44,324 nt of DNA from Rhodospirillaceae bacterium (GCA_902615805.1 CACMQH010000006.1:1-44324); one strand, 5' to 3'. Shown: positions 26,190 to 36,081, numbered from the stretch's first letter. The notes: a model not told the origin generated them from the sequence alone. Numbers and translations are program-made.

Positions 26190-26984
26190 TTATTCGATAA
26201 AAAACAATTGCTGATTTTTATTTTTAAAATTTATAATATTTTTTTTAGATTGATCAGATAACAACCAAATTAAAACTCTATTAGCAAGCTTATATTTGCT
26301 TTGAGGACATTTATCTTTATTTATTATATGTGCATTATATCTATTAATTAAGAAGTCTTCATTATCTGAATAAATTATAAAATCTAATTTATTCTTAAAA
26401 GAGAGCCAAGTAGCTTTATCAGTAAAAGTATAAGCATTTAAACCTACAGCAGTATTTATAGTGGCTCCCATACTAGTCCCTGTTTCTAGATACCAATTTA
26501 CTGAAAATTCGGATGAATTCAGATATAAACTTTTCCAAATCATTTTTTCTTTGTAGTCTGTACCTGAATTATCTCCTCTAGAAATAAAAAGGCTTTTTGT
26601 CTCAAAAATTTTTTTAAAAGCACTTTTAACTTTTAAATTACCAATCTTTGCAGGATCATTTTTAGGACCAATTAATATATAATAATTATGCATGATATAA
26701 TATTTTTTTTTAGAAAAACCGCTATCCATAAAAATTTCCTCTTGTTGCGGACTATGAACAATTAGTAAATCTCCATCACAATTCATAGAGTTTCTTATTG
26801 CTGCACCAGTTCCTACTGCCACTACATTTACTTTTATACCTAAATCTTTATAAATTAACGGCAGGATATAATCATAAAACCCTGAGTTTTTTAAGGAAGT
26901 AGTAGATTGTAAAATTATGCTATTTTCTGCTTTTATAACTGAGATAAAAAAATAAATAAAAATTAAAACAATAAAACTTTGCAT
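26190..26984 (-). CDS. tupA: Tungstate-type ABC transporter substrate-binding protein
   Basis: A 264-residue periplasmic protein with a signal peptide (about 1-19). The binding-protein core reads QSTTSLKNSGFYDYILP, VNVVAVGTGAAIRN, DLLIVHSPQQEE and the later GDNSGTDYKEKMIWKS and YLETGTSMGATIN segments, close to TupA. It is the last gene of tupB-tupC-tupA, separated by 2 bp from tupC. Family members can bind tungstate or molybdate; the preference cannot be read here. The N-terminal TTS block normally starts TTTST, and is slightly altered. Confidence 0.88.
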   Translation of the reverse strand: MQSFIVLIFIYFFISVIKAENSIILQSTTSLKNSGFYDYILPLIYKDLGIKVNVVAVGTGAAIRNSMNCDGDLLIVHSPQQEEIFMDSGFSKKKYYIMHNYYILIGPKNDPAKIGNLKVKSAFKKIFETKSLFISRGDNSGTDYKEKMIWKSLYLNSSEFSVNWYLETGTSMGATINTAVGLNAYTFTDKATWLSFKNKLDFIIYSDNEDFLINRYNAHIINKDKCPQSKYKLANRVLIWLLSDQSKKNIINFKNKNQQLFFIE

Positions 26985-26986
26985 TA

Positions 26987-27712
26987 TTAAACAATTAATT
27001 TGCCAGCCATAAAAAGCTTGCCTTCTTTTGACTTTGGTTTAGAAAAAAATATTTTTGCACCTGTAAACTCACACATTTTTCCTTTATTAATGAATATAAT
27101 ATCATTAGCCAATCTTTTTGCCTGTAATAAATCATGGGTGACTGCTATTACCTTTGTCCCTTGTTGATTAACCTCTTTAATAATTTTTTCTATTATTTGA
27201 ATAGAATAAGGGTCTAAATTAGAGGTTGCTTCATCTAAAAATAGAACTTTAGGTAAAGTTACAATTGCTCTAGCAAGAGATAACCTTTGTTTCTCTCCAC
27301 CAGACAAAAGTATAGCATTCTCATTAACTAAATTTAATAAATCTACTCTTTTTAAAACTTTCAATATTTTTTCTTTATTTATTATTTTAGTTCTCTGTTG
27401 TAGAGCAAATGAAATATTTTTAAAAACAGATCTTCTTAATAATATAGGAGATTGAAAAACCATAGATTGTTGTTTTCTAATACTTGTATTTAGAGTTTTA
27501 TTTGCAAAAGTAACTTCAGAAGTGCTATCACTTATTAATCCATGTAAAAATTTTAAAAATAAAGTTTTACCAGCTCCATTTGGACCTAAAATAATTGTGA
27601 TACCTCTTGCTTTGATTTCACAAGAAATATCACTAAGTAATTTTCTTTGTCCTTTTTCAAAGTTTAGCTTCTTTACTTTTATAGGCATTAAAATATTTTT
27701 TTTACTTACCAT
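26987..27712 (-). CDS. tupC: Tungstate-type ABC transporter ATP-binding protein
   Basis: A 241-residue ABC ATPase. Walker A GPNGAGKT, signature LSGGEKQRLSLARA, Walker B KVLFLDEATSNLDP and the H-loop AVTHD are all intact. It overlaps tupB by 11 bases and is followed two bases later by the binding protein. Energises the TupB permease at the cytoplasmic face. A later start (MPIKVKKLNFEKG, about 8 residues in) is possible. Confidence 0.9.
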   Translation of the reverse strand: MVSKKNILMPIKVKKLNFEKGQRKLLSDISCEIKARGITIILGPNGAGKTLFLKFLHGLISDSTSEVTFANKTLNTSIRKQQSMVFQSPILLRRSVFKNISFALQQRTKIINKEKILKVLKRVDLLNLVNENAILLSGGEKQRLSLARAIVTLPKVLFLDEATSNLDPYSIQIIEKIIKEVNQQGTKVIAVTHDLLQAKRLANDIIFINKGKMCEFTGAKIFFSKPKSKEGKLFMAGKLIV

Positions 27713-28412
27713 AATACCTATCCTTAATGTTATATTTTTTATAAGTTACTATTAGGTTTATGGTGATAGATGTAATTAAAAGTATAATTCCCAAAGCTAG
27801 TGCCAAAGAAAGCTCACCTTTTGAGGTTTCCATTGTAATAGTAGTCGTCATTACTCTGGTAAGATGATCTATATTTCCTCCAACAATTATTACAGCTCCT
27901 ACTTCAGAGATACCTTTTGCAAGACCAGCTAAAACTACAGTAATTAGTGAATATCTTGCATCTATAATATAAGCTTTAATAGTAGTAATTTTGGGTGTGA
28001 CTAAAGAAACAAATAAATCATTATAATTTTCTTGAAGATCCTCTATGATTTGTGTTGTTAAACCTGCAATGATAGGCAGAATTAATATAATTTGTGCTAT
28101 AATCATAGCAGTAGGAGTATAAAGAATTCCTAACCAACCAAAAGGACCAGACCGAGATAAATTAATATAAACAAATAGACCTACAACTACAGGTGGTAAA
28201 GACATTAAGGAATTAATTATACCTATTAAAAGATTTCTTCCCTTAAATGTCTGAGTAGCCAAAAAAGTACCTAATGGCAAACCTATCAAACATGAAATAA
28301 GTAATGCTATTATTGTTACTTTAAAAGATAAGAAAAAGACCTCTATAAGCTTTTTATCAAAGCTAAATATTAAATTTATAGCTGTAAAAATTGAATTCCA
28401 GTAAATTTCCAT
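27702..28412 (-). CDS. tupB: Tungstate-type ABC transporter permease
   Basis: A 236-residue inner-membrane permease with five or six hydrophobic segments. The ABC permease cytoplasmic loop is seen as ARYSLITVVLAGLAKGISEV (EAA-like). The motifs NSLMSLPPVVVGLFVYINLS and GPFGWLGILYTPTAMI are typical of the molybdate/tungstate permeases. First gene of the three-gene importer. Tungstate uptake would serve W- or Mo-cofactor enzymes such as formate dehydrogenase; none is in the window. Confidence 0.88.
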   Translation of the reverse strand: MEIYWNSIFTAINLIFSFDKKLIEVFFLSFKVTIIALLISCLIGLPLGTFLATQTFKGRNLLIGIINSLMSLPPVVVGLFVYINLSRSGPFGWLGILYTPTAMIIAQIILILPIIAGLTTQIIEDLQENYNDLFVSLVTPKITTIKAYIIDARYSLITVVLAGLAKGISEVGAVIIVGGNIDHLTRVMTTTITMETSKGELSLALALGIILLITSITINLIVTYKKYNIKDRYYGK

Positions 28413-28887: not shown

Positions 28888-29349
28888 TTAATTTTTAAGT
28901 TTTATAGAACAATTATTAAATAAATCAGTGTCATTGTTTTTAAAAGATAGGTTATATTTTTTTTTTATCTTAAAATAAATATTAACATAATTACAAAAAT
29001 TAATAATTTCATATTCTAAACCTTTTTTATCATTACTTCTTCTTAAAAAATCTTTAGGAGTTGCTGACCCTTTTGAGCTATTTATTCTGTGACAGGCGGG
29101 AACATGATTTTCTTTATCGTTTGCAAACTCTTTTTTTCTCTCCAGGGTCCATTTAAAAGCACCACTATCAAAAGCATCTTTTAATGAAACAACATGGTCT
29201 ATATTAGTTTTACAATGTTTTTTTGTATAATATCCTATTTTAGTTTTTGTAGGATATGAGTGAAAATGAAAAAAATTTCTATTATATTTATTTTCCGCAT
29301 TTATCTTAGAAATAAAAAGAAAAATTAAGGTAATATAAAATATTTTCAT
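28888..29349 (-). CDS. Exported HNH / DUF1524-like nuclease
   Basis: A 153-residue protein with a signal peptide (about 1-18, ending INAE). The core IDHVVSLKDAFDSGAF, then ANDKENHVPACHRINSSKGS and ATPKDFLRR, follows the secreted HNH/DUF1524 pattern: D-H for metal/base, N and H for the second and third motif positions, and the SKG block. Together with the upstream cytosolic-facing nuclease-like protein it makes a two-nuclease pair. The role could be DNA scavenging (nutrient P or N) or defence; position does not decide. Confidence 0.75.
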   Translation of the reverse strand: MKIFYITLIFLFISKINAENKYNRNFFHFHSYPTKTKIGYYTKKHCKTNIDHVVSLKDAFDSGAFKWTLERKKEFANDKENHVPACHRINSSKGSATPKDFLRRSNDKKGLEYEIINFCNYVNIYFKIKKKYNLSFKNNDTDLFNNCSIKLKN

Positions 29350-29380: not shown

Positions 29381-29923
29381 TTAAGTAGATTCTCTTATTG
29401 ATCTAATATTTAAATAATGTGCTCCTAGCAAAATTAAACCACCTAATACTGTAAATATAGTTTCAAGTGTCTCTCCAATGCCTCCATGTTCATGATGTCT
29501 ATGTTCAGCTTCCTCATGATGAGTAGCCTCTTTATGCCCTGCTTCTTCATGATGAGTAGCCTCTTCGTGCCCTGCTTCTTCATGATGAGTAGCCTCTTTA
29601 TGGCCAATATGACTGCTCTCTGAACCGAAGTTAATATCATGCATAAAGATTGCACCCACAAGAAGGGATAAACCTATAACAGCTAAACTTATGCACTTAT
29701 AATTATGATGTACTCTCAAAGACTTAGCCATTGCAAATAAACTAATTGGAACTGCAAACAATACTAATATAACATGTACTTTTTCATTATTTATCCATAA
29801 AGATGCGAAACTAGGAATCATTAATATAATTACTGGCAAAGCAATACAATGCAATATACAGCAAAGTGAAAGACATATGGATAGTTTATCGCTAAATTGT
29901 TTTTTTACTTGTGCAATATTCAT
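29381..29923 (-). CDS. MerC-domain membrane protein with His repeat
   Basis: A 180-residue inner-membrane protein. Four hydrophobic segments and the Cys motif LSLCCILHCIALP (about 19-31) resemble MerC, a mercury/metal transporter family. Between segments three and four is a His/Glu-rich insert: three 11-residue units of the type GHKEATHHEEA, then HRHHEHGG. Such His loops bind Zn/Ni. It lies 18 bp after the outer-membrane gene and is part of the arm opposite zur, so metal (probably zinc) uptake under Zur is the favoured reading. True Hg resistance is unlikely because no merR/merA is near. Confidence 0.75.
   Translation of the reverse strand: MNIAQVKKQFSDKLSICLSLCCILHCIALPVIILMIPSFASLWINNEKVHVILVLFAVPISLFAMAKSLRVHHNYKCISLAVIGLSLLVGAIFMHDINFGSESSHIGHKEATHHEEAGHEEATHHEEAGHKEATHHEEAEHRHHEHGGIGETLETIFTVLGGLILLGAHYLNIRSIREST
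29507..29605 (-). repeat. Three 33-bp in-frame repeats encoding the His-rich insert
   Basis: Three near-identical 33-bp units (29507-29539, 29540-29572, 29573-29605), each encoding G-H-[KE]-E-A-T-H-H-E-E-A. Differences are confined to a few positions (for example the Lys/Glu codon). Copy-number variation by slippage is plausible, in multiples of 11 residues that preserve the frame. Confidence 0.9.
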
Positions 29924-29941
29924 AATTAATTCTCTTAAATT

Positions 29942-31270
29942 TTAATGGTCATGTCCGTCATGTCCACCAGAACCCAAATACATAATGTACTGAAAAATAA
30001 CTTGATTATCAACCATTTCAGCTCTTGGTGTTTCATGATTAAGTTGTAACCTCATAACCGATGCAGAGTCAAACTTCCACTCTGACATAATAGAATGAGT
30101 TTCAGGATCATTACCTGCCGGATCTAATGCACTACCAACAAGTCCAGTAGGAGCATCAGCAGGCAATAATTTACCATATCTATAACCAAGACTTAAATGC
30201 TCGTTAAACTGATTTACTAAAGATAAATAATAACCGCCATCATTATCATCAAATGCTACATTTCCTGTTGATTCTTCACTATCTGCGAAAGTACCATCTT
30301 GATTTCTATAAAAATATTCAGCACTTATTTTTAATTTCTGGTTAGAATTATATGAGTTTTCATAATCTAAATTTATAATAGATAAATCACTATCCCCACT
30401 AAATGTTACAGTATCTTCATTACCCAATCTTGCATTAGGCGATCTTGATTTTCCTGATAAATGATACAGATTAAAAGCCAATTCTTCGGTATTTGAGAGA
30501 TTTAAAGTAGATTTATAAAAGGCTGACCAAGCATCACTTCCAGTTCCCTCACTACCTGCAGTATTACCAAAAGGAAAGTCCTCTCCTCTAAAAATTCCAA
30601 ACCCGATTTCTGATGATCCTAGTAAGTATGAAGCTTCTAAACCATCATCATTATAAGCTTTATTTAAAAAAACTCTATAAGGTAATGGTCTATCTGCAAA
30701 ATCATCAGCATGAGCATGCTGAGGATTTAAAACACCTACATTCCAAAAAGCCCTACCAAATTTAAAAAAAGTATTATCTAGAAAGCTTCCATCTAAAGTT
30801 TCTACATATGCTTCTTCTAGCTCTATCTTATCTGCTCCATCTTCTCTAACAATTGCAGCTGTAAGAGATCCGCTAAATTTTTCGCCTATGTCTGAATTAA
30901 TTATTAACTCAGACTCTCCAATGAATAATCCTTCTCTTCCTCTTTCACCTTCATGTGCAGTACCAAAACCCTTTGGTTCCACCTCTCCCTCTCTAGTGTA
31001 AGCCATATATTTACCATTTAATACGGCCTCTATATTGAAGCTGCTTTCTTCAGAGTGTCCATCATGATGATCAGCTACTTTAGTATCTTGTTTAGCCTTC
31101 TCATTCTCTAATTTTTCTATTTTCGCTTCTAAAGCTTCAATTTTATTTTCATAAATTTCTTTAATCTGCTTAAATTCATTTTTTAAGTCAGACACTTCTT
31201 TATTTATATCAGCACTTAAATTTTTTATAAAAAAAATGCTAATTAAAACAACCACTATATACTTGTTCAT
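29942..31270 (-). CDS. Porin-like outer-membrane protein with His-rich N-region and C-tail
   Basis: A 442-residue exported protein: signal peptide about 1-20, a coiled coil (EIYENKIEALEAKIEKLENE, then KAKQD), a His stretch ADHHDGHSEESS, and a beta-barrel-rich body with a porin-like block FGRAFWNVGVLNPQHAHADD and many short amphipathic strands. The last strand reads VIFQYIMYLG, followed by an extra tail GSGGHDGHDH, unusual because outer-membrane barrels normally end in an aromatic residue. First gene of the leftward transcript from the zur gap and followed by the MerC protein. Zinc/metal passage across the outer membrane is an inference from the His motifs and context. Confidence 0.7.
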   Translation of the reverse strand: MNKYIVVVLISIFFIKNLSADINKEVSDLKNEFKQIKEIYENKIEALEAKIEKLENEKAKQDTKVADHHDGHSEESSFNIEAVLNGKYMAYTREGEVEPKGFGTAHEGERGREGLFIGESELIINSDIGEKFSGSLTAAIVREDGADKIELEEAYVETLDGSFLDNTFFKFGRAFWNVGVLNPQHAHADDFADRPLPYRVFLNKAYNDDGLEASYLLGSSEIGFGIFRGEDFPFGNTAGSEGTGSDAWSAFYKSTLNLSNTEELAFNLYHLSGKSRSPNARLGNEDTVTFSGDSDLSIINLDYENSYNSNQKLKISAEYFYRNQDGTFADSEESTGNVAFDDNDGGYYLSLVNQFNEHLSLGYRYGKLLPADAPTGLVGSALDPAGNDPETHSIMSEWKFDSASVMRLQLNHETPRAEMVDNQVIFQYIMYLGSGGHDGHDH

Positions 31271-31341
31271 AAATCTTCCCTTTTCTAAATTATTTAAGCT
31301 TAAGTGAGTTTAAGCTAAATAACTGATAACATTTTTGCAAT

Positions 31342-31355
31342 ACTATTGCAATAGT
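31342..31355. promoter_or_regulatory. Perfect 14-bp palindrome, candidate Zur operator
   Basis: ACTATTGCAATAGT is a perfect inverted repeat in the 131-bp region between the divergent porin-like gene and zur. A partly similar TTTTTGCAATA is just to its left and a TTTAAGCT direct repeat further left. A Fur-family operator is usually an AT-rich dyad of this size, so this is the best candidate to control both arms. It is not the textbook alphaproteobacterial Zur consensus. Confidence 0.4.
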
Positions 31356-31401
31356 GTAAATTATTTATTGATATATTTTTTTTTTATATTACTTTTAGTC
31401 T

Positions 31402-31836
31402 ATGGATATTACAAATACCGAAAATTTACTTAATTATTGTTTAATGAAAAAAAAGTCTTTAACTCCATCTAGGACTTTAGTTATAAAAACATTATCAAAG
31501 CACAAAAAACCAATATCTGCATATGAATTAAGAGACGAGATTAATAATAATGGAGATGTTAGTATAAATATTTCACAAATATATAGAGTTTTAGAGTTTT
31601 GGATAGATTTAGGACTTATCCATAAAATTTCTTCAATTAATAAATTTTTACTGTGCATTACACCAGAAGAAAAACATACCCATATGCTGAACTTTTGCAC
31701 TGTTTGTGAAAAAGTATTTGAAACATGTAATGAACAAATGGGGTTAAATTTAAAAAAAAGTACAGCTAAGCTTGATCTTGCTTTTAATAATACTCGCTCT
31801 GTAGAAATACCTGTTATTTGTCCTCAATGTAGTTAA
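31402..31836 (+). CDS. zur: Fur-family zinc uptake regulator (Zur type)
   Basis: A 144-residue metal-sensing repressor. The winged-helix part is SRTLVIKTLSKHKKPISAYE onward, with INISQIYRVLEFWIDLGLIH for the recognition helix and wing. The metal domain reads KHTHMLNFCTVCEKVFETC, and the protein ends VICPQCS, giving the two CxxC sites that hold the structural zinc. The H-x-H and Cys arrangement plus the flanking His-rich transport genes indicate Zur, not Fur. It diverges from the porin-like gene and its stop shares a base with the next start (TAATG), so it likely autoregulates. Confidence 0.88.
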   Translation: MDITNTENLLNYCLMKKKSLTPSRTLVIKTLSKHKKPISAYELRDEINNNGDVSINISQIYRVLEFWIDLGLIHKISSINKFLLCITPEEKHTHMLNFCTVCEKVFETCNEQMGLNLKKSTAKLDLAFNNTRSVEIPVICPQCS

Positions 31837-32216
31837 TGGAACATCTATTAGAACATTACCTTTATGGGTTTTCGGCTAATTTAAGAGGCTTTGTATTTGG
31901 TTTCTTTCATGCTGCAATTATGATCTTAGGATATTACACGGGTTGGAGCATAAATAGATTTCTTAAAATAATTTCTAATGGTTATATAGCGGGGATTTTT
32001 GGTGCTGCCTTATCACATGTAGTTGCAGATGTTATAGCAAGTTTTTTAGATCCTCATATTAGAAAAATGGTATTAGGAATAGTATTAGGAGGAATTGTTC
32101 CTTTGTTTTTTATTCCAATACTTGAAAAGTATGTTGTCAAAAGTAAACACCACATTGTTACTGGAGATCATGAAGATATAAAAAAAGATTTAAAAAGTCA
32201 TAAAAATAATACATAA
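31836..32216 (+). CDS. Small membrane protein in zur operon, unknown function
   Basis: A 126-residue protein with about three membrane helices (approx. 14-34, 47-68, 76-98; for example FFHAAIMILGYYTGW and GIVLGGIVPLFFIPIL). His residues sit at both ends (MEHLLEHY and SKHHIVTGDHED) and there are conserved-looking polar residues in helix two (ALSHVVADVIASF). It is translationally coupled to zur by TAATG and followed 12 bp later by zrgA. I do not recognise the family. Position and His content suggest a zinc-transport or sensing accessory. Confidence 0.6.
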   Translation: MEHLLEHYLYGFSANLRGFVFGFFHAAIMILGYYTGWSINRFLKIISNGYIAGIFGAALSHVVADVIASFLDPHIRKMVLGIVLGGIVPLFFIPILEKYVVKSKHHIVTGDHEDIKKDLKSHKNNT

Positions 32217-32228
32217 AGGAGAATTTAA

Positions 32229-32798
32229 ATGAAATTTTTTATTAGTTTACTATTAATGTTTAGCTTTTACAGTTTTGCCGAAGATGACCATCATAATCAT
32301 GATCATAGTCATGACCACACTAATGAGGAAAGTTCCAAGAAAGATAAAAAATCTCTAGATGCTCACGTTCATGGTGTCAGTATTCTTAATTTAGTGCAAG
32401 ATATGAAACAGTTATCATTTGAATTTGAGATGCCTGGTTTCGACGTAGTTGGCTTTGAATATAAAGCAAAGAAAAAAGAAGATATAAAAAAAGTAAGAAA
32501 TGCATTAGGTATACTATCTGATTATAATAATATGATTGATGTACCTGCTAACGCAAATTGTAAAGAAGAAAAAAGCTCTGCAAAGGTTATTAATGAAGGT
32601 TCCCATTCAGAATTTATAAGTCAATATTTATTAATTTGTGAAAAAATATCTTCAATTAAAAATATACAAATTAAATATTTTGATAGCTTTCCATTTAGTA
32701 AAGAACTTACCATAAATCTAATTACTAAAAATAAAAAAATGGCTCAAACTATTAATAGACAAGACAATATAATTAATGTTGATGGGTATTTTAATTAA
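32229..32798 (+). CDS. zrgA: ZrgA-like (DUF2796) zinc-uptake periplasmic protein
   Basis: A 189-residue exported protein with a signal peptide (about 1-17) and a His-rich N-terminus (DDHHNHDHSHDHTNE). The DUF2796 signature LDAHVHGVSILNLV, then LSFEFEMPGFDVVGFEYKAK is clear. ZrgA in Vibrio is a periplasmic zinc-acquisition protein of the Zur regulon, encoded with an ABC transporter. Here it is preceded by GGAG (Shine-Dalgarno) and followed 5 bp later by an ABC ATPase. Strong context with zur. Confidence 0.82.
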   Translation: MKFFISLLLMFSFYSFAEDDHHNHDHSHDHTNEESSKKDKKSLDAHVHGVSILNLVQDMKQLSFEFEMPGFDVVGFEYKAKKKEDIKKVRNALGILSDYNNMIDVPANANCKEEKSSAKVINEGSHSEFISQYLLICEKISSIKNIQIKYFDSFPFSKELTINLITKNKKMAQTINRQDNIINVDGYFN

Positions 32799-32803
32799 CT
32801 TAG

Positions 32804-33481
32804 ATGAATAACGTTATAGAAATAAATGACCTACTATTTGAATGGAATAATAAAAAACAATTTAGTTTAAAGATTAAAGAACTAAAAGTACAAAATAAAC
32901 AAAAGATTATTATCTTTGGCAGAAGTGGTTCAGGAAAATCAACACTACTTAATTTGATTAGCGGAATTTTATCTCCCACTAATGGTACTTTATGTATAAA
33001 AAATACAGAAATAAATAAATTATCTCAAAAAAAAAAAGATCAATTTAGAGCTAATAACATTGGAGTTATATTTCAACAATTTAATATCTTAAATTATTTA
33101 TCTCCCCTTCAAAACATATTGTTACCTTGTTTTTTTACACAATTTAAGAAAAATAATAAAGAATACTTTTATGACAGAACTTTTGCTTTAGCTCAAAAGT
33201 TAGATATAAAAAAAAATATTTTATTGCAAAATAATTCTAAAGATTTATCTGTAGGGCAAAAGCAAAGAATAGCTATTTTAAGAGCAATTATAAATAAGCC
33301 ATTCTTAATACTTGCCGATGAAGCAACATCAGCTCTTGATGAAAATAATAAAAATGACTTTATTAATCTTCTTATGAATTTATGTGATGAAGAAAAAATT
33401 ACCTTACTCATGGCAAGTCATGACACATCGTTAGAAAAGAATTTTGATACGTCCATTAATTTAGAAAAAGTTTTATTGTGA
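32804..33481 (+). CDS. ABC ATPase, LolD/MacB type, of the ZrgA cluster
   Basis: A 225-residue ATPase. Walker A is GRSGSGKST, the Q-loop region is VIFQQFNILNYLSPLQNI, Walker B is LILADEATSALDE, and the H-loop is MASHD. The ABC signature is degenerate: DLSVGQKQRIAILRA, with LSVGQ in place of LSGGQ. Overall architecture matches the LolD/MacB-type exporters/mechanotransmission ATPases. It pairs with the FtsX-like permease encoded directly after it (2-base gap). In Vibrio an equivalent ATPase/permease pair accompanies ZrgA. Confidence 0.85.
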   Translation: MNNVIEINDLLFEWNNKKQFSLKIKELKVQNKQKIIIFGRSGSGKSTLLNLISGILSPTNGTLCIKNTEINKLSQKKKDQFRANNIGVIFQQFNILNYLSPLQNILLPCFFTQFKKNNKEYFYDRTFALAQKLDIKKNILLQNNSKDLSVGQKQRIAILRAIINKPFLILADEATSALDENNKNDFINLLMNLCDEEKITLLMASHDTSLEKNFDTSINLEKVLL

Positions 33482-33482
33482 A

Positions 33483-34730
33483 ATGAAAATATTAATTAAT
33501 ATTGCTTTTCAATCTTTATTAAGTAGAAAAATTACAGTTTTTTTAACTATAATCTCATTAACCATATCTATAGTATTATTTTTATCTATAGATACATTAA
33601 GGTTAGGGGCAAAAAAAAGCTTCTTCGGAAATGTTAAATCTGGTGATTTAATACTAGGAGCTAGATCTGGAGAGGTTCAATTATTACTTTACTCTTTATT
33701 TCAAATTGGCAGTCCTACTAATAATATTAGTTGGGAAAGCTATCAGCAAATTTCAAAAATGCCAGAAATAGATTGGATCATCCCTATTTCTTTAGGTGAT
33801 AGTCATAAGCAATTTAGAGTAATGGGTACAACAAAAAAATATTTTGAAAAGTTTTCTTATAGAAAAGATAAAAAATTACAGTTTCAATCTGGAATATATT
33901 TTGAAGATACTTTTGATGTTGTGATAGGAAGCGATGTGGCAGAAATTTTAAATTATAAATTAAATGATAATATTATAATTGCTCATGGAATAGCATCACA
34001 ATCTTTACATGATGAGTTCCCTTTTAAGATAAAAGGGATATTAAAAAAAACTGGAACCTCAACAGATAAGCTAGTATTAGTAAGTCTTGAAGCACTAGAA
34101 GCCATTCACAAAGATTGGAAAACTGGGTCAAAGCTACTTTCTAATACTAAAAGCAAAGAAAAAGAAACCAAAGGTTTAGACCTAACTCCTAAAGAAATAA
34201 CTGCAGCTGTAATTAAATTAAAATCTCCTATCACCATATTTAAAGTACAAAGAGAAATTAATGACTACCAAATAGAACCTTTACAAGCAATTATTCCAGG
34301 TATTGTGCTTACTAAACTATGGCAGATAGTTTCAATAACTGAAAATATAATGTTATCAATATCAAGTATGGTAATTATAAGTTCTATTATAGGAATGATA
34401 GCAATACTATATTCTAACCTAAACATTAGAAGAAAAGAAATGGCACTTCTTAGAATAGTAGGTGCCTCCCCTAAAAATATTTTTACGTTGATGATGTTTG
34501 AAGCATTCTTAATATCTTTTTTTAGTATTATATTTGCTGTTGTTTTAGTTCAAATAGCTAGCTTTATTTTTTTTCCTTTATTAGATAGGCAGTTTGGTAT
34601 TTTTCTAGAACAGAAATTATGGAATGCTAGGAATTTATATTTTTTAAATTTAGTTTTGATTTCTTCATTATTAGTAAGTATATTTCCAAGTATTCAAGCT
34701 TTTAGAAAATCTATTAATGATGGTATTTAA
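33483..34730 (+). CDS. FtsX-like permease (MacB/LolC type) of the ZrgA cluster
   Basis: A 415-residue inner-membrane protein with four membrane helices: one at the N-terminus (about 15-37), then three at the C-terminus (about 280-305, 335-360, 380-400), separated by a large periplasmic domain. The C-terminal LNIRRKEMALLRIVGASPKN is the FtsX coupling signature. Typical mechanotransmission ABC permease layout. Overlaps the next gene by 14 bases. Cargo probably concerns ZrgA or zinc, by context only. Confidence 0.82.
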   Translation: MKILINIAFQSLLSRKITVFLTIISLTISIVLFLSIDTLRLGAKKSFFGNVKSGDLILGARSGEVQLLLYSLFQIGSPTNNISWESYQQISKMPEIDWIIPISLGDSHKQFRVMGTTKKYFEKFSYRKDKKLQFQSGIYFEDTFDVVIGSDVAEILNYKLNDNIIIAHGIASQSLHDEFPFKIKGILKKTGTSTDKLVLVSLEALEAIHKDWKTGSKLLSNTKSKEKETKGLDLTPKEITAAVIKLKSPITIFKVQREINDYQIEPLQAIIPGIVLTKLWQIVSITENIMLSISSMVIISSIIGMIAILYSNLNIRRKEMALLRIVGASPKNIFTLMMFEAFLISFFSIIFAVVLVQIASFIFFPLLDRQFGIFLEQKLWNARNLYFLNLVLISSLLVSIFPSIQAFRKSINDGI

Positions 34731-35268
34731 AGTGCAATTGGTTCTAAAATTCTTTTTTCAATGTTTAGTAGTATTATTATTATTTTTGAACAATGTTCAC
34801 AGCGATGATAGTATAAGGCTAAAGTGGTTAGAGTTAGTTCCAAAATATGCTTATGACTTTGTTCCTGAGTCTGGGGTTACTGAAGAAATGTGGGAAGATG
34901 AAATATTTTTACAAAAGGTAGAAAAGGCAGGCCTTTTAATAAATGATGAAGTGGTAGGAAAAAAAATTCAAATAGATGGTTTTATGGTACCTCTAGAATT
35001 TGACTATGGAGAAGGCTTAACAGTAGAAGAGTTTGTCTTGGTACCTGATGCAGGTATGTGTATACACGTTCCTCCTCCCCCTCCAAATCAAATGATTTTT
35101 GTTAAACTAAAAAAACCGGAAAAAGTTAGGTTTATGTACCAGCCAATTCTTATTGAAGGAGTTTTAAAAAAAACTCCTCCTGTGAAAGATGTATATAATA
35201 GTATTTATGAAGTTTCTGCGGAGAGTATAAAAGATATAGATATGGAAGATTTATATTATGAAGATTAG
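34717..35268 (+). CDS. DUF3299 exported protein of the ZrgA cluster
   Basis: A 183-residue protein with a signal sequence (about 1-28). The DUF3299 core is QIDGFMVPLEFDYGEGL, then EEFVLVPDAGMCIHVPPPPP and NQMIFVKL, in which C and H of the GMCIHVPPPPPNQ motif could bind metal. Such proteins recur next to ZrgA and ABC permeases in proteobacterial zinc loci. The start codon overlaps the permease's 3' end; a second ATG three bases later is equally possible. Confidence 0.78.
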   Translation: MMVFKVQLVLKFFFQCLVVLLLFLNNVHSDDSIRLKWLELVPKYAYDFVPESGVTEEMWEDEIFLQKVEKAGLLINDEVVGKKIQIDGFMVPLEFDYGEGLTVEEFVLVPDAGMCIHVPPPPPNQMIFVKLKKPEKVRFMYQPILIEGVLKKTPPVKDVYNSIYEVSAESIKDIDMEDLYYED

Positions 35269-35277
35269 AATAAAAAA

Positions 35278-36081
35278 ATGTTAAAGCAAGCTATTGATTT
35301 TTTTGAAGAATCACAAGACATATATAAAATATTATTTAATATTTCAGAAAATAGCCTAAATACTATAACACAATTTAAACATTGGTCTTTTAATGATATT
35401 ATACGACACCTCCATGTATGGAATATAGCTGCCTACAAGTCTTTACAAGGAGATATTGAATGGGAAAGTTTTAATAATAATTTACAAACTTTTTTTAAAG
35501 AAGGAAAAAAATTAAGTGATTTCGAAAAATCTATAACAAAAAATTTAAAAGGAAAAAACTTACTTAATATATGGCAAAGTACTTTTAAAAATGTATCGGA
35601 AGAGTTTAAAAAAGAGTCTCCAAAAAAAAGAGTAAAATGGGTTGGTCCTGATATGAGCGTCATCTCATCAATAAGTGCAAGACATATGGAAACTTGGGCA
35701 CATTCACAAGCAATTTATGACTCACTTGGAAAAGTACGTAATAATAAAGATAGGATTTTAAATATAGTTATAATAGGTAATAATACTTTTGAATGGACAT
35801 ACAAGGTAAATAATAGAGAAATACCAAGTGAAAAACCTTATCTTAAGCTAATTTCTCCGTCTGGAAAAGTTTGGGAGTTTAATGACCCTTCAAATAAAGA
35901 AAGAATAGAGGGATTAGCTGAAGAATTTTGTCAAGTTGTTACACAAGTAAGAAATATAAAGGATGTAAATTTAAAGTTAAGTGGCAAAACCTCCACTCAG
36001 TGGATGTCAATTGCACAATGCTTTGCTGGCAAAGCTTCTTCACCTCCATTACCTGGTACTAGAAAGTTAATAACACAATAA
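35278..36081 (+). CDS. TIGR03084-like, DinB-fold metal-binding protein
   Basis: A 267-residue cytoplasmic protein. A four-helix DinB/MDMPI-type bundle is indicated by WSFNDIIRHLHVWNIAAYKS and ISARHMETWAHSQAIYDSLG; His46-like in IRHLHVW, together with the RHMETWAH His pair, forms the usual metal triad. The C-terminal sterol-carrier-like part is FCQVVTQVRNIKDVNLKLSG, ending CFAGKASSPPLPGTR. This is the pattern I recall for TIGR03084. It follows DUF3299 by 9 bp; whether it belongs to the zinc system or is only co-located is open. Confidence 0.65.
   Translation: MLKQAIDFFEESQDIYKILFNISENSLNTITQFKHWSFNDIIRHLHVWNIAAYKSLQGDIEWESFNNNLQTFFKEGKKLSDFEKSITKNLKGKNLLNIWQSTFKNVSEEFKKESPKKRVKWVGPDMSVISSISARHMETWAHSQAIYDSLGKVRNNKDRILNIVIIGNNTFEWTYKVNNREIPSEKPYLKLISPSGKVWEFNDPSNKERIEGLAEEFCQVVTQVRNIKDVNLKLSGKTSTQWMSIAQCFAGKASSPPLPGTRKLITQ

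Follow-up and report, generated by a model that had tools for sequence, protein, structure and literature searches.

The zrgABCDE genes of Vibrio are the closest described relatives of the locus presented here. Without znuA, Vibrio cholerae depends on zrgA to grow in low zinc (PMC9820375), and Vibrio parahaemolyticus is impaired by the loss of zrgA (PMC9817125). The DUF2607 gene zrgD is optional, as it is missing in Vibrio fischeri and Photobacterium profundum (PMC9817125). A homologous, likewise Zur-regulated set of four genes, PA4063-PA4066, is present in Pseudomonas aeruginosa, where the ZrgBC homologue has been reported to be a MacB-type exporter of cobalt-pyochelin (PMC11481552). Zur-regulated zinc uptake and the Zrg system as such are already known, and the role of the latter, a zinc importer in Vibrio versus a metallophore exporter in Pseudomonas, is disputed.

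Here we analyzed a stretch of 44,324 nucleotides from Rhodospirillaceae bacterium (GCA_902615805.1 CACMQH010000006.1:1-44324), in the following referred to as the window, whose region 29381-36081 harbors a Zrg-type gene set together with a Zur-type regulator, a porin and a MerC-family protein. A previous sequence-only reading had proposed a zinc-acquisition island spanning all layers of the envelope. Our comparison agrees with this proposal and indicates that the region is probably a locus for zinc starvation under repression by Zur, in which a system of the rarer Zrg type has taken the place of ZnuAB, the importer that usually accompanies the porin. On the level of the sequence this view is carried by a predicted zinc-sensing Zur, a single conserved putative operator between two divergent units, the conservation of the whole block and the absence of ZnuA and ZnuB.

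Composition and conservation of the Zrg-type locus

The locus consists of two divergent units. On the plus strand, the regulator gene zur (zinc uptake regulator, 31402..31836) is followed by TM3 (31836..32216), which encodes a small membrane protein of an unnamed family, by zrgA (32229..32798) for a periplasmic zinc-binding protein, a zrgC-type ABC ATPase (32804..33481), a zrgB-type MacB/FtsX permease (33483..34730) and a ZrgE-type periplasmic DUF3299 protein (34717..35268); all neighboring genes overlap or are at most 12 bp apart. On the minus strand, the porin gene (29942..31270) and merC (29381..29923), which encodes an inner-membrane protein, are separated by 18 bp. The tight spacing in both directions fits the expectation of two operons. 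A reading-frame check located every gene of the sequence-only reading at the coordinates given there, and MerC, the Fur-family regulator, ZrgA, the ATPase, the permease and the DUF3299 protein all exceed their curated Pfam cut-offs, whereas the porin-like protein and TM3 have no identity in Pfam or NCBIfam.

The previously noted likeness to the Vibrio Zrg system holds for ZrgA, the ATPase, the permease and the DUF3299 protein. ZrgA is recognized by PF10986 (2.2e-30; 106 bits, cut-off 27.4) and matches the structure of its V. cholerae namesake (7.6e-25). It is adjoined by a separate ATPase (PF00005, 6e-29), which has LolD as its best NCBIfam model but scores far below the respective cut-off, and by the permease with its MacB_PCD (PF12704) and FtsX (PF02687) domains; the DUF3299 protein (PF11736, 6e-28) completes the set, which shares a predicted Zur control with its Vibrio equivalent. 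Since ZrgA misses the cut-off of the NCBIfam equivalog NF047873 (115.7 vs. 185 bits), we designate the system as Zrg-type and not as the Vibrio equivalog. It differs from the latter by the lack of ZrgD, as no DUF2607 match was found in the locus and TM3 is unrelated to DUF2607 in Pfam, and by the inclusion of zur, TM3, porin and merC. Moreover, Vibrio possesses both Zrg and ZnuABC, whereas the lineage of the window lacks the latter.

Co-conservation of the porin, MerC and Zrg genes in relatives had been set beforehand as one of the points on which the sequence-only reading could fail, and the reading withstands this check. Among 28 genomes of the order, the complete arrangement merC-porin<>zur-TM3-zrgA-zrgC-zrgB-DUF3299 is present in seven, which belong to two genera and have different flanks. 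Relatives with a name are marine single-cell genomes and metagenome-assembled genomes (MAGs), namely, Rhodospirillaceae bacterium AG-422-C09 and AG-919-A04, Alphaproteobacteria bacterium TMED93, and Candidatus Pelagibacterales NP101 and SP81. The lack of ZnuABC that had been stated for the window extends to the whole genome and nine relatives, as neither ZnuA (PF01297, 0/10) nor ZnuB (PF00950, 0/10) was detected in these genomes of the genera g1 and g5, and no ZIP transporter above cut-off was found in this lineage. ZnuA and ZnuB without ZrgA characterize genus g2 and most genomes of genus g7, while genus g8 harbors both a porin-znuAB and a zur-zrg cluster in separate places. Most genomes carry two TonB-dependent receptors, none of which was found here at a Zur box.

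Zur, its predicted operator and the zinc-linked porin

The regulator (FUR, 1.8e-8) has E. coli Zur as its nearest solved relative (4mtd, 1.5e-13). In the E. coli protein, His77, Cys88, His96 and Glu111 form the regulatory site, and Cys103, Cys106, Cys143 and Cys146 the structural one (PMC4219657). Transfer by alignment shows that all eight ligands are kept (H74, C85, H92 and E107; C99, C102, C140 and C143), and they are invariant across the seven orthologues. The protein misses the cut-off of the NCBIfam model PRK11639 (68.4 vs. 167 bits), which must describe the E. coli-type subset and not the whole family, because zur-like proteins from other lineages reach just 63-80 bits. Judged by its predicted metal sites, the regulator is Zur.

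The 131-bp intergenic region between porin and zur contains the perfect palindrome TTGCAATAcTATTGCAA, which has the 7-1-7 form of Fur-family sites and is better conserved than any other stretch when seven genomes are aligned. The predicted Zur operator TGCAATAcTATTGCA (31336..31350) comprises 15 bp within a 17-bp perfect palindrome at 31335-31351. It is the only site in the window and exact, compared with 0.52 sites at up to two mismatches in shuffled sequences. The whole genome contains two sites at up to one mismatch, both of them exact, and a control with the reversed pattern retrieved none in ten genomes. The second site precedes a DsrE-like gene, which is slightly below the Pfam cut-off, by about 25 bp; the next gene encodes a COG0523 GTPase that scores 592.5 bits on the model of the zinc chaperone ZigA (cut-off 600). 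Four relatives have the box in front of this operon as well, which makes five genomes in all, and Zur sites preceding COG0523 genes are well documented (PMC2770081). Matches with one mismatch near cytochrome, phosphoglycerate kinase and molybdopterin genes of relatives were judged to be due to chance. The eight ligands, the operator shared genome-wide only with the COG0523 operon and the conservation of the block in two genera take the assignment of the metal beyond family names, and zinc is very likely the target.

The box of the window lineage has the half-site TGCAATA, which deviates from the canonical TGTTATA. The canonical form TGTTATGTTATAACA precedes porin-znuA-znuB or zur-TM3 in several other lineages, and the TGCAATA form is found in front of zur, the ATPase gene and the porin in genus g7, which belongs to the same family as the window. 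From this distribution we infer that the putative operator and its regulator were altered together within this family. A g7 locus (L085:600-6933) combines zur, a MacB-like ATPase and permease without ZrgA, and porin-znuA-znuB-DUF3299 in a single run, with Zur-type boxes in front of zur, the ATPase and the porin. We do not claim g7 as a direct intermediate, as its MacB-like permease groups apart from that of the window.

A second, solo ZrgA gene occurs on a contig of about 30.8 kb (L025:8767-9285; G000, contig C12). It is oriented divergently from a gene for an unknown protein of 154 aa, an AhpC-type peroxiredoxin and an AhpD-like gene of the carboxymuconolactone decarboxylase family. Solo ZrgA genes are also present in the related genomes G005, G006, G017 and G018, preceded by a perfect TGATAATgATTATCA box in G006 and a TGCAATA-type box in G005.

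The porin has no real match in Pfam or NCBIfam. Its AlphaFold model of moderate confidence (pTM 0.60, pLDDT 64) shows a 16-strand barrel with an N-terminal helix, and Foldseek retrieves general porins such as OmpE36 and DcaP, which resemble the model in fold but share only about 10% identity and differ from the window porin by its His-rich tail and zinc-linked neighbors. DcaP has an N-terminal coiled coil. Of the 385 genomes of the class, 38 contain relatives according to a profile search, as does one Methylococcaceae MAG. In all 30 of these other loci that were long enough to be read, the next two genes encode ZnuA and ZnuB, an identity checked with Pfam, and some of the clusters stand behind a canonical Zur box. 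The protein is thus a member of a predicted zinc-linked outer-membrane family, in which the window lineage is exceptional in its partners, namely, MerC and the divergent zur-zrg unit under a TGCAATA box; a function in zinc entry is quite likely. The porin-znuA-znuB cluster of genus g7 is closed by DUF3299, which suggests that the latter may be a general accessory of zinc import and not Zrg-specific. In L111-L114 and L169-L188 the profile search revealed porin-znuA-znuB clusters without an adjacent ABC ATPase, so ZnuC must be located elsewhere or shared. A regular-expression search for ZnuC near porin-znuAB was discarded, as it missed the ATPase of L085, its positive control.

TM3, MerC and the neighboring genes

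TM3 has no match above cut-off in Pfam or NCBIfam, but it is the most conserved of the aligned island proteins (mean identity 93%). Relatives are found in 16 of the 385 class genomes, nearly all of which have a size of 0.8-1.6 Mb, and the invariant residues of the family include H25, H61, D65 and D72. An identity as ZIP or MntP transporter was rejected, as the best values among 14 members (7.5e-5 and 7.7e-5, respectively) are below the Pfam cut-offs, and the same holds for both families with TM3 of the window. The structure prediction (pLDDT 51) is unusable for any claim about the fold. In other genomes TM3 adjoins zur (two near-complete genomes that each consist of a single contig) or COG0523 (two), or has a TonB receptor directly upstream (another one). 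A Zur box is present at the gene or its operon in four of 13 loci outside the family of the window and absent from the other nine. Ten of 14 re-tested TM3 genomes lack ZnuB, and the same ten have neither ZrgA (class search) nor a ZIP protein above cut-off. Homologues in such streamlined alphaproteobacterial genomes (L122:7564-8324, L128:6899-7728, L124:5777-8246, L120 and L125) have zur, COG0523 genes or a TonB receptor rich in His as neighbors. TM3 may thus be regarded as a tentative candidate for a zinc carrier of the inner membrane. A wider proposal, according to which TM3 would represent an unnamed family of minimal, Zur-regulated zinc importers in streamlined Alphaproteobacteria without ZnuABC, Zrg and ZIP, and would have replaced ZnuAB in the window jointly with Zrg and MerC behind a retained zinc porin, appears doubtful.

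MerC is clearly assigned to its family (PF03203, 1.5e-20; 74.2 bits, cut-off 27.6) and adjoins the porin in all seven genomes with the block. With the MerC mercury transporters it shares a PF03203 score above cut-off, but it differs from them by a long His-rich loop between helices 3 and 4, the lack of adjoining mer genes and the position behind a predicted Zur operator. Four other Zrg-bearing genomes harbor a MerC gene beside COG0523, three of them with an intact Zrg operon and two with zur in the same stretch; MerC is therefore a recurrent component of putative zinc-shortage loci, and a CxxHC motif in the first helix is common to the proteins of these loci and of the window. The sequence-only reading had considered the pairing of porin, MerC and Zrg uncommon. 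This remains true for the association of the porin with Zrg and the loss of Znu, as the porin normally accompanies znuA-znuB, but less so for MerC, whose occurrence with COG0523 and Zrg is repeated in those four genomes. A text search of the literature revealed no link of MerC to Zur; the hits for “MerC” in PMC2770081 refer to the author name Merchant. That MerC transports zinc is conceivable from its context.

A further earlier statement, that the proteins of each compartment are His-rich, applies to MerC with its 20 His residues as well as to the porin, ZrgA and TM3, whereas the ATPase (1 His), the permease (4) and the DUF3299 protein (2) are not His-rich. The list of genes previously given for the region was correct but left the last one of the run unnamed. 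It encodes a metal-binding protein of the TIGR03084/MDMPI fold (35278..36081, plus strand; 254.6 bits, cut-off 248) and starts 9 bp after DUF3299; in most g5 loci it lies a few genes farther away and is not adjacent, and its membership is doubtful. On the other side of the island, merC is adjoined by the gene of a small, apparently secreted protein (28888-29349) that has a GmrSD_C/HNH-type domain (1.3e-5), as is also the case in several g5 genomes. A tungstate-type, TupABC-like ABC transporter (26190-28412; TupA 5.5e-55, TupB 6e-45, both below the equivalog cut-offs) is also located beside the island, and this neighborhood is kept in genus g1 only.

A model of zinc uptake and its alternatives

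With sufficient zinc, zinc-loaded Zur on the 15-bp operator would silence both divergent units, and under zinc shortage it would leave the site; the assignment of Zur and of its operator in this model is highly probable. The derepressed rightward unit would supply Zur, TM3, ZrgA, ZrgC, ZrgB and the DUF3299 protein, and the leftward unit the porin and MerC. Zinc would pass through the porin, bind to ZrgA and the His-rich loops in the periplasm, and be taken across the inner membrane by the ATP-driven ZrgBC, with TM3 and/or MerC as possible further carriers. The second operator would control the COG0523 GTPase that may allocate the scarce zinc.

Import by ZrgBC is favored on balance but represents the weakest step. 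A rather improbable alternative is a zinc-regulated locus in which ZrgBC acts as a MacB-type exporter or mechanotransmission pump served by ZrgA and DUF3299, while zinc enters the cytosol via TM3 or MerC. The MacB/FtsX type of the permease and the export assigned to PA4063-PA4066 are in line with this scenario, as is the presence of TM3, sometimes behind a Zur box, in the ten genomes without ZnuB, ZrgA and ZIP. It is at odds with the phenotypes of the zrgA mutants of both Vibrio species, and no gene for a metallophore came to light in the stretch read, with MacA and TolC partners not searched for genome-wide. Moreover, the Pseudomonas set acts beside several other zinc importers, whereas the window lineage has Zrg without Znu or ZIP, which favors import, or else requires TM3 or MerC to be the importer. 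A target metal other than zinc (cobalt, manganese or mercury) is highly improbable. The name of MerC and the effect of the P. aeruginosa homologues on cobalt point in this direction, but they are confronted with the Zur-specific ligand set, an operator common to a ZigA-like GTPase and a porin family tied to ZnuAB. A mercury-resistance locus in particular was rejected, as neither merR, merA nor merT is among the annotated neighbors, which are porin, zur, zrg, HNH and tungstate genes. The separate porin-znuAB and zur-zrg clusters of genus g8 would be compatible with a chance neighborhood of unrelated metal genes without joint function, but this view is largely refuted by the recurrence of the arrangement between diverged flanks in seven genomes from two genera, one shared operator and the independent link of the porin family to zinc, and is thus extremely improbable.

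Several observations weigh against the replacement of ZnuAB by an importing Zrg system. The window genome is only 75.5% complete, which makes its own absences weak, so the claim of absence rests on G005 (97%) and G006 (91%). In the porin and permease trees, the window lineage groups as a single clade with a long branch and unresolved forks around it, and vertical replacement and transfer are therefore indistinguishable. Finally, the ZrgBC homologue of P. aeruginosa has been described as an exporter and not as an importer, and the roles of both TM3 and MerC in the model are guesses from their context.

Zinc is very scarce in surface seawater. High-affinity zinc uptake has been reported as the exception among the metal-uptake traits that are otherwise minimized in streamlined SAR11 (PMC4771312). 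In the literature searched, we found no description of a retained zinc porin followed by another system in place of ZnuAB, of the altered Zur box or of the TM3 family. In another marine lineage with small genomes, Zrg seems to stand in for the standard importer, while the channel in the outer membrane, the regulator and the chaperone have been retained. The presence of Zrg in a lineage without ZnuAB or a ZIP protein above cut-off offers a means to separate the importer view from Vibrio and the exporter view from Pseudomonas. Two unnamed families, the zinc-linked porin and TM3, gain a concrete context, and the locus suggests how zinc could cross the outer membrane in the absence of a dedicated TonB receptor.

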